Shown here: positions 2,086 through 7,301 of the stretch, in pieces
Layout of the letters: each line of letters opens with the position of its first letter
Numbering within the stretch: position 1 is the stretch's first letter
Origin: Spirochaetes bacterium ADurb.BinA120
GTDB taxonomy: Bacteria; Spirochaetota; UBA4802; UBA5368
NCBI GenBank assembly: GCA_002069125.1
Contig: MVZN01000021.1
Location: 1-44,189, forward strand
Length of the DNA stretch: 44,189 bases
Reading direction: 5' to 3'
Notes under the pieces: model-generated
What the model saw: the letters and a program-made list of their open reading frames with translations, nothing else
What the model was told of the DNA's origin: nothing
Databases searched by the model: none
Made by a program: the position numbers and the translations under genes

Positions 2086-3399
2086 CTATCTCAGGCAGTG
2101 AAACAGGCCCGTGCACCACAGACATGAGGCGCATGGCACGCTCGTTATGAAGCAGTCCTGTTCGGATTCCTCATCCCGCGCCAGATCGCAGAGCGCGAGG
2201 CTGCAGTCGTAGCAGAAAGGAAAATTGTACCGAATGACGTTTTCGCGGAACGCCCGGAACTCCTCCGAGTTCCAGATTGCGAGTATTCCGTCGCTTTCCA
2301 GATCCCCGAAGACCTTCGGCTTAACGCTGTTTGCGACACCGCCCAGATAGCACTGGAAGCGGTGCCACAGAAAATGGCAGGGATGGACCTTCCCGTCCCA
2401 CGAGACGAAGGCCGAGCCCTCCTCGACGAAGTCGCAGCGCCTGGCGCTTCTGGGGGCTGTGCCGGGCAGGGTGAGCTCTATCCCATTCTCGATGGCGATG
2501 CGCCCGGCCTCCTCGAGCGCCTTTTCGACCGCGGCCAGCATCTCCTCGTCGCGTCCAATGAGGGCTTGGAGGTTGAGGGATATTCCATGGGCCGCCGCAT
2601 CGGCGACCATCGCTTCGATGTGCCTTACGATCCGATCCTCCTCATCGCTGCGGATAAATTTCATGAATATTTCGAAATAACGGGACATGTCGATCCCCTC
2701 TGCGCGCGCCCGCCGCCGCCATTTTTCGTAAAACGCGAGCGCGGAGTCGGTGTTTGTATCGAAGGCGGATTCCCCGGCCATCGACGCCTCGTAGGGCAGG
2801 AGCTGGGTGATGATTGCGAAGCGGATGCCAAGCTTTGCCCCCCACTTCATCACGGCTGGAAGCTCCTCGATGTTTTCCCGCATGGCGACGAATTCGATTC
2901 CGGGCATAAAGTCGTCCCTTGCCTGTTCGCGCGCCGCCCTAATGAGCTCGGAGAGCGCCCTTGCGGTGACCGAGGGGTCGCCGACTCCCCTTACGGCCTT
3001 AAATGTCCCCGCTGAGGAGGCGTCCACCGAAACACATATCCTCCCGGCCCCCGCGCCTATGATGGAATCGGCGCGCCTGCCGCTCATAAGAAAGCCGTTT
3101 GTCTGGAAGCCCACCCAGGCTTCAGCAGGCATGAGGTCCCTGGCCCGACCGATGAAATATTCGAGATCCGGGTGCAACAACGGCTCGCCGATGCCGCTGA
3201 GCACCATGGCCTTTAAGCCGGGCATGCCCTCCTCGAGTCGCGCGAAATGGGCCCGGGAGAGGTCCCCTTCAGGCAGGCAGGCCGCGTGGCTGTGCTTGAC
3301 GCACATAGCGCACTTAAGATTGCAGCGCGTGGTTACCTCCACGAAAAGTTTGGAGGGATGGCTCCTTAAGGCCGCCTGTGTGTTCGTTTCTTTCGTCAT
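2086..3399 (-). CDS. Radical SAM/SPASM protein, probable tungsten-oxidoreductase maturase
   Basis: A 437-residue protein with the radical SAM cluster motif TRCNLKCAMC (Cys26, Cys30, Cys33), then LSGIGEPLLHPDLE and FQTNGFLMSG typical of the SAM barrel. The C-terminal 130 residues hold about ten cysteines, including FCYDCSLALCDLA and VPCASCLWCTGLFHC, a SPASM-like region that would bind auxiliary Fe-S clusters. This tail and the divergent position next to the AOR gene fit the family annotated as tungsten cofactor oxidoreductase radical SAM maturase; that assignment is from memory of the family. It lacks the W-x-G-C and ferredoxin-like insert expected of a glycyl-radical-enzyme activase, although a glycyl radical enzyme follows it. 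ATG at 3399 is preferred; a TTG at 3441 would add 14 residues. Neither start has a clear ribosome site. Confidence 0.85.
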   Translation of the reverse strand: MTKETNTQAALRSHPSKLFVEVTTRCNLKCAMCVKHSHAACLPEGDLSRAHFARLEEGMPGLKAMVLSGIGEPLLHPDLEYFIGRARDLMPAEAWVGFQTNGFLMSGRRADSIIGAGAGRICVSVDASSAGTFKAVRGVGDPSVTARALSELIRAAREQARDDFMPGIEFVAMRENIEELPAVMKWGAKLGIRFAIITQLLPYEASMAGESAFDTNTDSALAFYEKWRRRARAEGIDMSRYFEIFMKFIRSDEEDRIVRHIEAMVADAAAHGISLNLQALIGRDEEMLAAVEKALEEAGRIAIENGIELTLPGTAPRSARRCDFVEEGSAFVSWDGKVHPCHFLWHRFQCYLGGVANSVKPKVFGDLESDGILAIWNSEEFRAFRENVIRYNFPFCYDCSLALCDLARDEESEQDCFITSVPCASCLWCTGLFHCLR

Positions 3400-3503
3400 G
3401 TGCCGGTCTGCCGGGCGCCGCCCGAAACGGCCCCATGTCAATTCTATTGAATGTTGGGGTATTTTTCAAAATTAAATACTATCATGTGATGATATAAAAC
3501 TGT

Positions 3504-3540: not shown

Positions 3541-3737
3541 TCATGTGTGCGCATCCCCCCGTCATTTTATGGCGGGCCGGGGATTCCACCTCGCACCTAT
3601 CCATCGCATGGCCGGCCCAAAGAGGGAGGTTTCACCGGGGTGTATGGCGGCTCGGGGCGCTCCTTCGAGCGGGAGGGCGTGTTCCATCCAATCATATCGT
3701 GTTACCCGCCGCACACAACCACTTCAGGAGGGAGCCA
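3541..3737 (+). promoter_or_regulatory. Structured 5' leader of the AOR gene, possible Moco/Tuco-type riboswitch
   Basis: This GC-rich leader has no convincing reading frame of its own and can fold extensively. GGGCCGG (3574-3580) pairs perfectly with CCGGCCC (3612-3618), enclosing GGAT (3581-3584) with ATCC (3599-3602). A second hairpin is CGCTC-CTTC-GAGCG at 3658-3671. GCTCC at 3659-3663 could alternatively pair with GGAGC at 3731-3735, beside the ribosome site. Known Moco/Tuco riboswitches sit upstream of pyranopterin-cofactor genes, so the position is suggestive, but I could not match the consensus by eye. Most of the 338 bp gene-free divergent gap (3400-3737) is accounted for by this leader and the promoter. 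Confidence 0.35.
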
Positions 3738-5474
3738 ATGGACAAAATTCTCAGGATCGACATGGGCGCGAAGGGAGGGCCGAAGGCAAGCACATTGCCA
3801 TTGGGCGATTACGCGGGCCTCGGCGGACGCGCAATGACCACGGCCGTGGTTTCGAAGGAGGTCCCGCCGCTGTGCCACGCGCTTGGGGCCGAAAACAAGC
3901 TGGTCATAGCGCCAGGTTTGCTTACCGGTTCGGCTGCGGTAAACTCCGGGCGCATCTCGGTGGGCTGCAAGAGCCCGCTTACCGGCACCATCAAAGAGGC
4001 GAATTCCGGCGGACAGGGGGGCATCGCTCTCGCCCGCCACGGCTACGCCGCCATTGTCCTCGAGGGGAAGCCGGTTACGGACGACCTGTATAAAATTCAT
4101 ATAAGCTCCGGGGGCGTAAAGATACAGGCGGACAACAGCCTTAAAATGCTTCTGAATTACGACCTGGTGGAGAAGATGAAGGCCGAATACGGCGAGAAGA
4201 TCGTCTGCATATCGATAGGCCCGGCGGGAGAGATGAAGCTCGGCGCGGCCTCTGTCGCGGTAACCGACATGGAGACGAGGCCCAGCCGTCACGCGGGTCG
4301 CGGCGGGGTCGGCGCCGTAATGGGCTCCAAGGGCGTGAAGGTCATAGTGATAGACACCTCCGGCACCAAAATGCGACAGCCCAAGGATCCGGAAAAATTC
4401 AAGGAGGCAAACCGCAAGTTCACCGAGGGCTTGCGCTCCCACTCGGTGACAGGGCAGGCCCTGCCGAAGTTCGGAACCAATGTTCTTACGAACATCCTCT
4501 GCGAGGCGGGGGGATATCCCACCTATAATTTCAAGGAGGGCGTATACAAGGACGGCGCCAGCATAAGCGGGGAGGCTTTCGCCGAAATCGAGACCAGCCG
4601 AGGAGGCAAGGCGACGCACGGCTGCCACACCGGGTGCATCATCCAGTGTTCGGGAATATACGTGGACAAGGACGGAAACTTCATCTCGAAGCAGCCGGAG
4701 TATGAGACCGTCTGGGCCCACGGAGGCAACTGCGGAATAAACGACCCGGACATACTGGCGAAACTGGATTTTCTGGACGATAATATCGGCCTGGACACGA
4801 TAGAGATGGGCGTGACGATCGGCGTTGCGATGGAGGCGGGGCTTCTGCCCTTCGGCGATGGCGAAGGCGCGCTCAGGCTCATCGCGGAGGTCGGCAAGGG
4901 CACATCGCTTGGCCGCATTCTGGGAAGCGGTGCGGAGGTGACGGGCAAGGCCTTCGGCGTTGAGCGCGTGCCCGTGGTTAAGGGCCAGGCGATTCCGGCG
5001 TACGACCCCCGCACCGTGCAGGGTATCGGCGTGACATACGCCACCAGCACCATGGGCGCGGACCATACGGCGGGTTACGCGGTGGCCACAAACATCCTCA
5101 AGGTGGGCGGCTTCGTAGATCCGCTGAAACCGGAGGGGCAGATAGAGCTCTCCCGCAATCTTCAGATCGCCACGGCCGCCATCGACGCGACAGGGATGTG
5201 CCTGTTCATCGCCTTCGCGGTTCTCGATCAGCCCGAGACCTTCCAGGCCCTGGTGGACATGATAAACGCCTTCTACGGCCTCTCGCTTACCGGTGACGAC
5301 GTGACCGAGCTCGGCAAGAAGATACTTTCAATGGAGCGTGATTTCAACAGCAGGGCGGGCTTCGGACCCAGGCACGACCGGCTGCCGCGCTTTTTCTACA
5401 ACGAGAAGCTGCCGCCTCACAACATCACATGGACCATGAAAGACGAGGATCTTGACCGGGTGTACAACTGGTAA
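3738..5474 (+). CDS. Aldehyde:ferredoxin oxidoreductase family enzyme (tungsten/molybdenum pterin)
   Basis: A 578-residue AOR-family protein that would oxidise an aldehyde (or reduce an acid) with ferredoxin, using a bis-pyranopterin W or Mo centre and one 4Fe-4S cluster. Visible landmarks are GRGGVGAVMGSKGVKVI (near 188-204), the cluster ligands CHTGCIIQC (Cys296, Cys300, Cys304), the NIGLDTIEMG stretch near 349-358, and IDATGMC (Cys488) for the fourth ligand. The first three cysteines are spaced CX3CX3C, not the CX2CX3C of Pyrococcus AOR, so it belongs to another subgroup and the substrate cannot be inferred. ATG at 3738 is chosen because AGGAGGGAG precedes it and the protein begins there like its family; an in-frame extension to 3504 is unlikely. 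A terminator follows. Confidence 0.93.
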   Translation: MDKILRIDMGAKGGPKASTLPLGDYAGLGGRAMTTAVVSKEVPPLCHALGAENKLVIAPGLLTGSAAVNSGRISVGCKSPLTGTIKEANSGGQGGIALARHGYAAIVLEGKPVTDDLYKIHISSGGVKIQADNSLKMLLNYDLVEKMKAEYGEKIVCISIGPAGEMKLGAASVAVTDMETRPSRHAGRGGVGAVMGSKGVKVIVIDTSGTKMRQPKDPEKFKEANRKFTEGLRSHSVTGQALPKFGTNVLTNILCEAGGYPTYNFKEGVYKDGASISGEAFAEIETSRGGKATHGCHTGCIIQCSGIYVDKDGNFISKQPEYETVWAHGGNCGINDPDILAKLDFLDDNIGLDTIEMGVTIGVAMEAGLLPFGDGEGALRLIAEVGKGTSLGRILGSGAEVTGKAFGVERVPVVKGQAIPAYDPRTVQGIGVTYATSTMGADHTAGYAVATNILKVGGFVDPLKPEGQIELSRNLQIATAAIDATGMCLFIAFAVLDQPETFQALVDMINAFYGLSLTGDDVTELGKKILSMERDFNSRAGFGPRHDRLPRFFYNEKLPPHNITWTMKDEDLDRVYNW

Positions 5475-5614: not shown

Positions 5615-6202
5615 ATGAACGGTAGCGAAGTTGAAAAAACCGGCGGCAGGCCCGAGACGCTTTTGCTTACCGTCGTACCCGGGGCCATTGCGCGCTTCTT
5701 TCCGCTCTTCCTGGAGGGGGTGGCGCTTGAAACCGAAACGGGAAAGACCGTGCGGGAGTTCCTGTGCGCCGTGCTTGGCGTCGACGAGGCTTATGTGGAG
5801 GGGCGGATAAGCACGATTTTTCTTAACGGCAGGCCGGTCGACGACCTGGATGCCGCGATCGTGGACGACGGATCGGTGCTCGCGCTCTCGGCGGCAATGC
5901 CGGGGCTGGTGGGGGCGGCCATGCGCCGCGGCGGGTATTACGCGGCTATGCGCAGCGGTATAAGCCACCTTCCCGGTGAGGGCCACTCCGGGGCGCGGCG
6001 TGGAAGGATACGCCTGAAGCTCTTCAATATGATTCTCGAGGAGATAGCCCCCTCGCTCCTCCGCGCCGGCGTGATCGTGGGCGCCGAGGGGCTCTCCCGC
6101 GTTATTGCCGGTCTGGACCGCGACGGCCTGATCGAGCCGGGCGCCGGATCAAAAATTTCGTCTGAGACGCGGATTGTCGTTGTAAGCCGAAACGGCCCCT
6201 GA
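5615..6202 (+). CDS. Unrecognised protein with MoaD/ThiS-like N-terminal half
   Basis: 195 residues, no family I can name. Residues about 12-100 read like a beta-grasp sulfur-carrier fold: TGKTVREFLCAVLGV, then IFLNGRPVDDLDAAIVDDGS and LALSAAMPGLVGA. The last part matches the place where MoaD ends in PPVxGG, but here the chain continues for about 95 residues (MRRGGYYAAMR, then RIRLKLFNMILEEIAPSLL and a GVIVGAEGL stretch), so it cannot act as a free C-terminal diglycine carrier unless cleaved. It lies between the AOR terminator and the MoaD-like and ThiF-like genes, suggesting a job in cofactor assembly or AOR maturation. ATG at 5615 has only a weak GGAG upstream. Function inferred from context only. 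Confidence 0.75.
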   Translation: MNGSEVEKTGGRPETLLLTVVPGAIARFFPLFLEGVALETETGKTVREFLCAVLGVDEAYVEGRISTIFLNGRPVDDLDAAIVDDGSVLALSAAMPGLVGAAMRRGGYYAAMRSGISHLPGEGHSGARRGRIRLKLFNMILEEIAPSLLRAGVIVGAEGLSRVIAGLDRDGLIEPGAGSKISSETRIVVVSRNGP

Positions 6203-6246
6203 TATCGTACCGCCTGAGGGCGGCCAGCCCCATGGGGGACCGGAAG

Positions 6247-6483
6247 ATGAAAAGCACCATAAATGTAACGGTCAAGCTTTTCGCCACGCTGCGCGAGGGA
6301 CGGTTCGATATACGATCCATGGAGCTCGCCGATGGCGCGACGGTCGCCGACGTGGTGAGCCTTCTCGGCATAGCGGAGGAGGAGGTCGCTCTCATCATGG
6401 CAGATCATCGGCACCGAGAAATGGATTACGCTCTTGCGGACAGGATGACGCTCGCGCTCTTTCCGCCGGTGGGGGGAGGCTGA
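6247..6483 (+). CDS. MoaD/ThiS-family sulfur carrier protein
   Basis: A 78-residue beta-grasp protein: INVTVKLFATLREG at the start, ELADGATVADVVSLLGI in the middle, and a C-terminus ending LALFPPVGGG. The terminal double glycine is what an E1-type enzyme adenylates before thiocarboxylate formation; in MoaD this sulfur goes to the dithiolene of molybdopterin, the ligand also used by tungsten enzymes. ATG at 6247 has GGACCGGAAG in front; an alternative ATG at 6232 adds five residues. A small hairpin (CCGCC-TGAG-GGCGG, 6211-6224) lies just upstream. The stop overlaps the next start by one base (TGATG), so it is translationally coupled to the ThiF/MoeB-like gene, the expected partner. Confidence 0.85.
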   Translation: MKSTINVTVKLFATLREGRFDIRSMELADGATVADVVSLLGIAEEEVALIMADHRHREMDYALADRMTLALFPPVGGG

Positions 6484-7301
6484 TGGACATTCGAAACGAA
6501 CTGAGGAAGGCCGCCCGTGAGGGCTGTATTCGGACCGCGGACATCGAGAGAATCGCGTCTTCGGCGGGACTCGCTACCGCCTCGGTAGAGCGTTCGGCGC
6601 TCGAGGCGGGAATAGTCCCCGAGCGATATCGGCGTAACGGCTCAACCATTTCGCCGGAGCAACAGCTCAGGCTTTTGAGCAGCACGGCCGCGGTCGTAGG
6701 CTGCGGAGGCCTGGGCGGGTATGTGGTCGAGGAGCTCGCCAGGCTCGGCGTGGGGCGCCTCATAGCGATCGATCCGGACGTGTTCGAGGAGCACAACCTG
6801 AACCGCCAGCTCTACGCCGTCGGGGAGTCGTTAGGCAAGCCGAAGGTCGAGGCGGCCGCGGCGAGAATCGCTATGGTCAATCCCTCGGTCAGCATGGTTC
6901 CCTTATACGAGCGCTTTACGTCCGATTCCGCGAAGCGCCAGCTTTCGGGTTCTGTTGTGGTGGTGGATGCCCTGGATTCGGTTTCGGCGCGGAGAGAGCT
7001 GGCGGCTTCGTGCTCGGCTCTCGGACTGCCGCTGGTGCATGGCTCCATAGCGGGCTGGTTCGGCCAACTGACCGTTCAGTATCCGGGCGAGTCGACCATA
7101 GACTCGCTCTATGCCGGCTTCGGCGGGGACAAGGGGGTGGAGGCGCGCCTTGGGAACCCGTCGTTTACACCCGCGGTGGTGGCGAGCCTTCAGGCGGCAC
7201 TGGCGTGCAAGCTGATCCTCGGAATGGAAAGCGGCCTGCGCCGCCGCGTGCTTATGATCGACCTCCTGGCGATGAGCTTCGAAACGATCTCGATGGGCTG
7301 A
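6483..7301 (+). CDS. ThiF/MoeB/HesA-family adenylyltransferase (E1-like)
   Basis: 272 residues. A helical N-terminal extension of about 45 residues precedes the E1 domain, which starts at ERYRRNG (MoeB: RYSRQ). The nucleotide-binding loop is VVGCGGLGG (from residue 71), followed by IDPDVFEEHNLNRQLY with the conserved Asp97/Asp99 and Arg108, Lys121 in GKPKVEA, and VDALDS (162-165). It should adenylate the diglycine tail of the carrier encoded immediately upstream. The two CxxC pairs that bind zinc in MoeB and ThiF are absent, so it is a zinc-less variant as in some HesA-like proteins. The gene ends five bases before the convergent chemotaxis gene, inside a shared hairpin. Confidence 0.88.
   Translation: MDIRNELRKAAREGCIRTADIERIASSAGLATASVERSALEAGIVPERYRRNGSTISPEQQLRLLSSTAAVVGCGGLGGYVVEELARLGVGRLIAIDPDVFEEHNLNRQLYAVGESLGKPKVEAAAARIAMVNPSVSMVPLYERFTSDSAKRQLSGSVVVVDALDSVSARRELAASCSALGLPLVHGSIAGWFGQLTVQYPGESTIDSLYAGFGGDKGVEARLGNPSFTPAVVASLQAALACKLILGMESGLRRRVLMIDLLAMSFETISMG

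Follow-up and report, generated by a model that had tools for sequence, protein, structure and literature searches.

MoaD genes have been known to lie beside genes for aldehyde:ferredoxin oxidoreductase (AOR) since 2006 (Iyer, Burroughs, and Aravind, PMC1779556). In Aromatoleum, the enzyme as purified does not contain the MoaD-like neighbors AorD and AorE (PMC6365974). Adding aorDE raised the specific activity from 4.5 to 16 U/mg, and in the Aromatoleum table of that study, aorDE alone left the W content unraised (PMC9295118). Another MoaD-family protein, UblC of T. kodakarensis (TK1065; PMC11323500), is encoded between AOR and radical SAM genes. The literature surveyed names no dedicated insertase for AOR-family enzymes, and the words maturation, chaperone, and MoaD are all absent from a 2025 tungsten-enzyme review.

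Here we describe a protein family, labeled FAM here and containing the product of nucleotides 5615 to 6202 of the DNA analyzed below. Like the MoaDs of PMC1779556 and like AorD and AorE (PMC6365974, PMC9295118), FAM is MoaD-type and AOR adjacent and is a putative cofactor maturation factor. The accounts of MoaD genes beside AORs in these three papers do not describe the probably tandem protein without a terminal GG that is FAM. UblC shares the genomic setting but differs in having a di-glycine, in being, according to that paper, a conjugating Ubl, and in having a single domain. The adjacency of MoaD and AOR genes is not new; a tandem, GG-less MoaD-like protein with an internal tail is absent from the family libraries and literature surveyed.

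An unannotated gene in an AOR operon

We analyzed a window of 44,189 nucleotides from Spirochaetes bacterium ADurb.BinA120 (contig MVZN01000021.1); the features that concern us are listed in Table 1. In the FAM product, FLNGRPVDDLDAAIVDDGSVLALSAAMPGLVGA makes up residues 69 to 101. The MoaD-like stretch closes with "...LALSAAMPGLVGA", and residue 101 is followed by one Ala and then MRRGGYYAAMR (93 residues from Met103; 94 past GLVGA). The first-pass annotation, made from the sequence, had read FLNGRPVDD...DGSVLALSAAMPGLVGA followed by about 95 residues. That reading of the text was accurate, with 94 residues by our count, as was the placement of the gene directly before a GGG-ending MoaD-like gene, which is the next ORF and matches ThiS over the cut-off.

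Table 1. Features of the FAM locus, with positions in the window
Feature	Position	Strand	Basis or remark
Radical SAM/SPASM putative metalloenzyme maturase	2086..3441	-	TIGR04311, 553 bits (cut-off, 400); oriented divergently to the AOR operon
AOR of the FAM-associated branch	3732..5474	+	Pfam AFOR_N/AFOR_C; CX3CX3C motif THGCHTGCIIQCSG
FAM gene	5615..6202	+	195 aa; probably two MoaD-like domains in tandem, no GG at the end
N-terminal MoaD-like domain of FAM, residues 14-92	5654..5890	+	hhalign to MoaD and to bridge family; AF2 strands and helices
Internal segment in the place of the MoaD tail, residues 92-117	5888..5965	+	SAAMPGLVGAAMRRGGYYAAMRSGIS; most conserved segment
C-terminal half of FAM, residues 128-195	5996..6199	+	Probable second, degenerate MoaD-like domain; hhalign, AF2
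Ordinary MoaD/ThiS-like sulfur carrier	6232..6483	+	GGG end (PPVGGG); PF02597, 35 bits (cut-off, 22.5)
ThiF/MoeB-type E1 adenylyltransferase	6483..7301	+	PF00899, 158.5 bits

We found no significant match for the window protein in Pfam, NCBIfam, PHROGs, or PDB sequences, and PF02597 and the MoaD/ThiS models of NCBIfam did not match it either. The protein had been called unrecognized, and for Pfam and NCBIfam families this holds. The plasmid records searched contained no FAM, and the window contained no Rfam element (such as a Moco/Wco riboswitch) at the gathering threshold.

FAM homologues were present in 18 of 59 related genomes, the window's own counted, with about 60 to 69% identity within the genus and more distant relatives elsewhere among the 18. 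Within the genus, dN/dS was 0.18 to 0.36, and FAM is under purifying selection. Homologues in the genus and in related genomes, together with the low dN/dS, show that the ORF at 5615-6202 did not arise by chance. Scanning GTDB genomes yielded at least 262 confirmed FAM loci, 80 of which were kept; these come from Spirochaetota, Desulfobacterota, Nitrospirota, Acidobacteria, one Betaproteobacterium, and others. FAM is therefore a widespread bacterial family without annotation. The median identity to the window proteins was 41% for FAM, 71% for AOR, 46% for MoaD, and 50% for E1. Thus, FAM diverges far faster than AOR and at a rate nearer to those of MoaD and E1, as would be expected of a maturation factor more than of a core subunit.

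Relationship to MoaD and predicted structure

The first-pass annotation had proposed a MoaD fold with its tail buried inside a longer chain. We compared residues 14 to 118 of FAM with the neighboring MoaDs by using hhalign and obtained a score of 32.1; the maximum was 21.0 for 100 column-shuffled MoaD profiles and 17.7 for 35 unrelated real alignment blocks. We also looked behind FAM-less AORs of 50 to 57% identity and there found a bridge family, A4, of MoaD-like proteins of 94 to 112 aa that have no terminal GG and have residues past the tail position. One A4 member is clearly over the Pfam ThiS cut-off (36.3 versus 22.5 bits), and the strong A4 matches in one class adjoin an AOR in 11 of 11 cases. 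A4 aligned with FAM with a probability of 95.8 and an E value of 6.6e-9 over 67 columns, and 0 of 100 shuffles came near. The signal comes wholly from the core, the tail excluded; the A4 tail is not significant alone, so homology of the two tails was rejected and they can be compared by position only. Taken together, the profile scores and the A4 bridge bear out the earlier proposal in part: the N-terminal half of FAM is MoaD/ThiS related by profile comparison, with a homologous core, and its tail region lies within a longer chain. AOR has a tandem beta-grasp module of its own (AFOR_N); we rejected homology of FAM to it, as hhalign did no better than with shuffles.

In the C-terminal half, RIRLKLFN resembles MoaD strand 1, VKLFA. 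Residues 126 to 195 scored 22.6 against MoaD (shuffle maximum, 18.8) and 26.7 against the FAM N-terminal half (1 of 100 shuffles as high). An AlphaFold2 model of the homologue at L091, built with 68 sequences, had a pLDDT of 93.6 and a pTM of 0.88, and each of its halves runs strand, helix, strand, helix, helix, strand, strand. The model of the window protein itself (pLDDT, 79.6) is mostly in agreement. The hhalign scores and the matching order of secondary structure make a tandem duplication likely, and the C-terminal half is probably a second, degenerate MoaD-like copy. The suggestion of a fused carrier-effector is thus only half right: what is added resembles the first half repeated, with the same fold, and not an unrelated effector.

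Differently from PF02597 proteins and from the textbook beta-grasp, the models have an extra helix between strands 1 and 2. With the confident L091 model, Foldseek matched nothing in the PDB significantly; with the weaker window model, H. pylori MoaD (3rpf_C) was first among weak matches (E, 0.41; probability, 0.47). Topology and profiles fit a beta-grasp, and a classical beta-grasp fold is not proven because the confident model has no significant match in the PDB.

FAM also differs from MoaD/ThiS in its tail, which is internal and is followed by the probable second domain. Across 81 sequences, conservation reaches at least 95% at 17 positions, and nine of these lie within residues 92 to 113; mean conservation is 0.76 in the internal tail versus 0.25 to 0.66 elsewhere. 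R104, R113, K135, F137, and N138, all past the start of the tail, are nearly invariant. The tail has glycines at 97, 100, 106, and 107; the pair at 106-107 is not conserved, as G107 is Ser in many members. A GG end occurs in 0 of 81 members, and many have a normal MoaD-GGG encoded beside them. Judged from its sequence, FAM as encoded therefore cannot act as a thiocarboxylate carrier. We found no conserved cysteine cluster in FAM (no Cys column exceeds 53%; median, 2 Cys per protein) and thus no signature of an Fe-S electron transfer subunit of the AorA type.

Single-domain MoaD-like proteins of this bridging kind, 94 to 112 aa long and without GG, lie directly behind AOR genes at L164 (1885-2169), L143 (6497-6832), L161 (2991-3317, minus strand), L162 (5775-6113), and L163 (5372-5671), with tails of the form PGxPGPYRxxLGF or PPELxFNTFVSLGFRKE. 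They share with FAM the homologous core (E, 6.6e-9), the absence of GG, the residues past the tail, and the place behind AOR. They differ in having one domain, in belonging to other AOR branches (50 to 57% identity), and in tails that do not align significantly with that of FAM. These five probably represent a wider class of noncarrier MoaD-likes that serve AORs.

Association of FAM with one AOR branch

The usual gene order is AOR, FAM, and MoaD(GGG), often with E1 next. FAM starts -60 to 300 nt from the AOR end in 58 of 64 same-strand pairs, and MoaD is close behind FAM in 37 of 39 cases. AOR and MoaD neighbors are general across FAM loci; E1 is out of view in many. A radical SAM (TIGR04311) gene is in view at about a tenth of the loci, and we rejected it as a fixed partner. 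Relatives of this gene near AOR or FAM also occur in L031, L049, L061, L063, L071, L073, L094, and L148.

In Spirochaetota, all 17 genomes that have this AOR branch (at least 70% identity to the window's AOR) carried FAM, versus 1 of the 42 without it (Fisher p = 6e-14, uncorrected for kinship). Other AOR branches occur in 25 of those 42 genomes, where FAM is absent or nearly so. In a class of Desulfobacterota, FAM was present in 22 of 31 genomes with the branch and 2 of 25 without it (22 with both, 9 with AOR only, 2 with FAM only, and 23 with neither; p = 2e-6). As FAM went undetected in 9 of 31 genomes whose AOR is at least 68% identical, it is not universally required. In 13 genomes, FAM has no intact AOR beside it; 10 of these carry the AOR elsewhere (71 to 76% identity), one has it in pieces, and two have none. 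The link is therefore strong but not absolute. Adjacency and co-occurrence in two phyla thus agree with the expectation that homologues would be tied to AOR loci.

The single FAM among the 42 Spirochaetota genomes without the branch is that of G035 (L147, 6905-7504; the same gene in L018). This homologue is divergent and has lost the MPG motif (MDAAPVSALQPGG), and AOR, MoaD, and E1 are all absent beside it. Genome G003 carries the operon as two complementary copies, each partly broken, on separate contigs (L149, 5314-6045, minus strand; L004). One copy has AOR-FAM-MoaD with a whole FAM and a truncated E1. In the other, FAM lacks its N-terminal part and has a frameshift near its end, MoaD and E1 are open, and no AOR lies beside. 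The whole FAM is in the copy with AOR, in this single case from a draft assembly.

The AOR branch linked to FAM carries a nearly invariant THGCHxGCxIxCSG (CX3CX3C; window 4614-4655, AOR residues 295 to 308), as judged from the window AOR and 57 aligned AORs. The motif is one residue longer than the CX2CX3C of the best PDB match and of some other AOR branches, and a fourth conserved Cys lies in MCLF near residue 490. We rejected the motif as the determinant of FAM, since FAM-less AORs (G022 and G119 to G122) have it too. Separately, we observed that G048 (L144, L145), a single-contig Spirochaetota genome, has 14 AOR-family matches and no detected MoaE.

A candidate maturation factor

Because FAM tracks one AOR branch, its probable role is that of a dedicated helper in the production of that AOR. 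Our best explanation, to which we give a probability of about one-half, is that FAM is a MoaD-derived, probably tandem-duplicated, GG-less maturation factor dedicated to one AOR branch; that the branch uses tungsten is presumed from the AOR family. The role in maturation is argued from neighborhood, rate of divergence, and analogy.

The main rival, which we consider less likely, sees in FAM an accessory subunit that belongs permanently to the AORs of this branch, either structural or shaping access of substrate or partner. AorA and AorC of Aromatoleum set a precedent, and the close spacing behind the AOR gene (58 of 64 pairs), the tie to a single branch, and the well-defined two-domain fold of the AlphaFold2 model would all suit a subunit. 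However, FAM is encoded apart from AOR in about ten genomes, goes undetected in 9 of 31 genomes with the branch, evolves far faster than AOR, and has no Fe-S or other cofactor motif. The divergence rate, the G003 case, and the Aromatoleum AorD/AorE data favor a maturation factor over a subunit.

FAM might also be a MoaD look-alike that regulates or decoys E1 or MoaE by filling the MoaD site without a reactive end, which the first-pass annotation had raised for E1. A GG-less MoaD-like domain beside MoaD and E1 would suit this, but we regard it as improbable: many FAM loci have no E1 in view, FAM follows the AOR branch instead of E1, and in G003 (one case) FAM is broken beside MoaD-E1 where AOR is absent. 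The earlier idea of a pro-protein, in which cleavage behind one of the tail glycines would release the N-terminal half as a MoaD sulfur carrier, has the MoaD-like core, the tail glycines, and the E1 nearby at many loci in its favor but is very improbable, because conservation runs across every possible cut, the flanking residues being invariant or nearly so, while there is no conserved GG, G107 varies, and most loci have a normal MoaD-GGG next door.

As a maturation factor, FAM would bind apo-AOR or bridge AOR and the molybdopterin machinery. A working site may be formed by the invariant internal tail (S92-A94-M95-P96-G97..G100-A101..R104..R113) and K135-x-F137-N138, and it would perhaps keep hold of the anionic metallopterin, or of apo-AOR, during cofactor insertion. 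Sulfur carriage would stay with the separate MoaD-GGG and E1, with none by FAM. MoaE was present in 16 of 17 FAM genomes, the exception being G030, a 71%-complete assembly; FAM is therefore no substitute for the large subunit of MPT synthase. A more specific version, quite speculative and somewhat less probable than the subunit, is that FAM is a tungstopterin carrier or insertase for AOR, with two MoaD-type domains and the former tail turned into an internal basic cofactor-binding site. If this were true, a sulfur carrier of pterin synthesis would have been recast as a delivery protein for the finished cofactor.

FAM is thus a concrete candidate for a dedicated insertase, being widespread, unannotated, and tied to one AOR branch. 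The single-domain counterparts suggest that AOR operons generally carry a MoaD-like protein without a sulfur-carrying role. FAM could also matter for producing active tungsten enzymes heterologously, as MoaD-like neighbors have raised activity once, in the experiment reported for Aromatoleum (PMC9295118).
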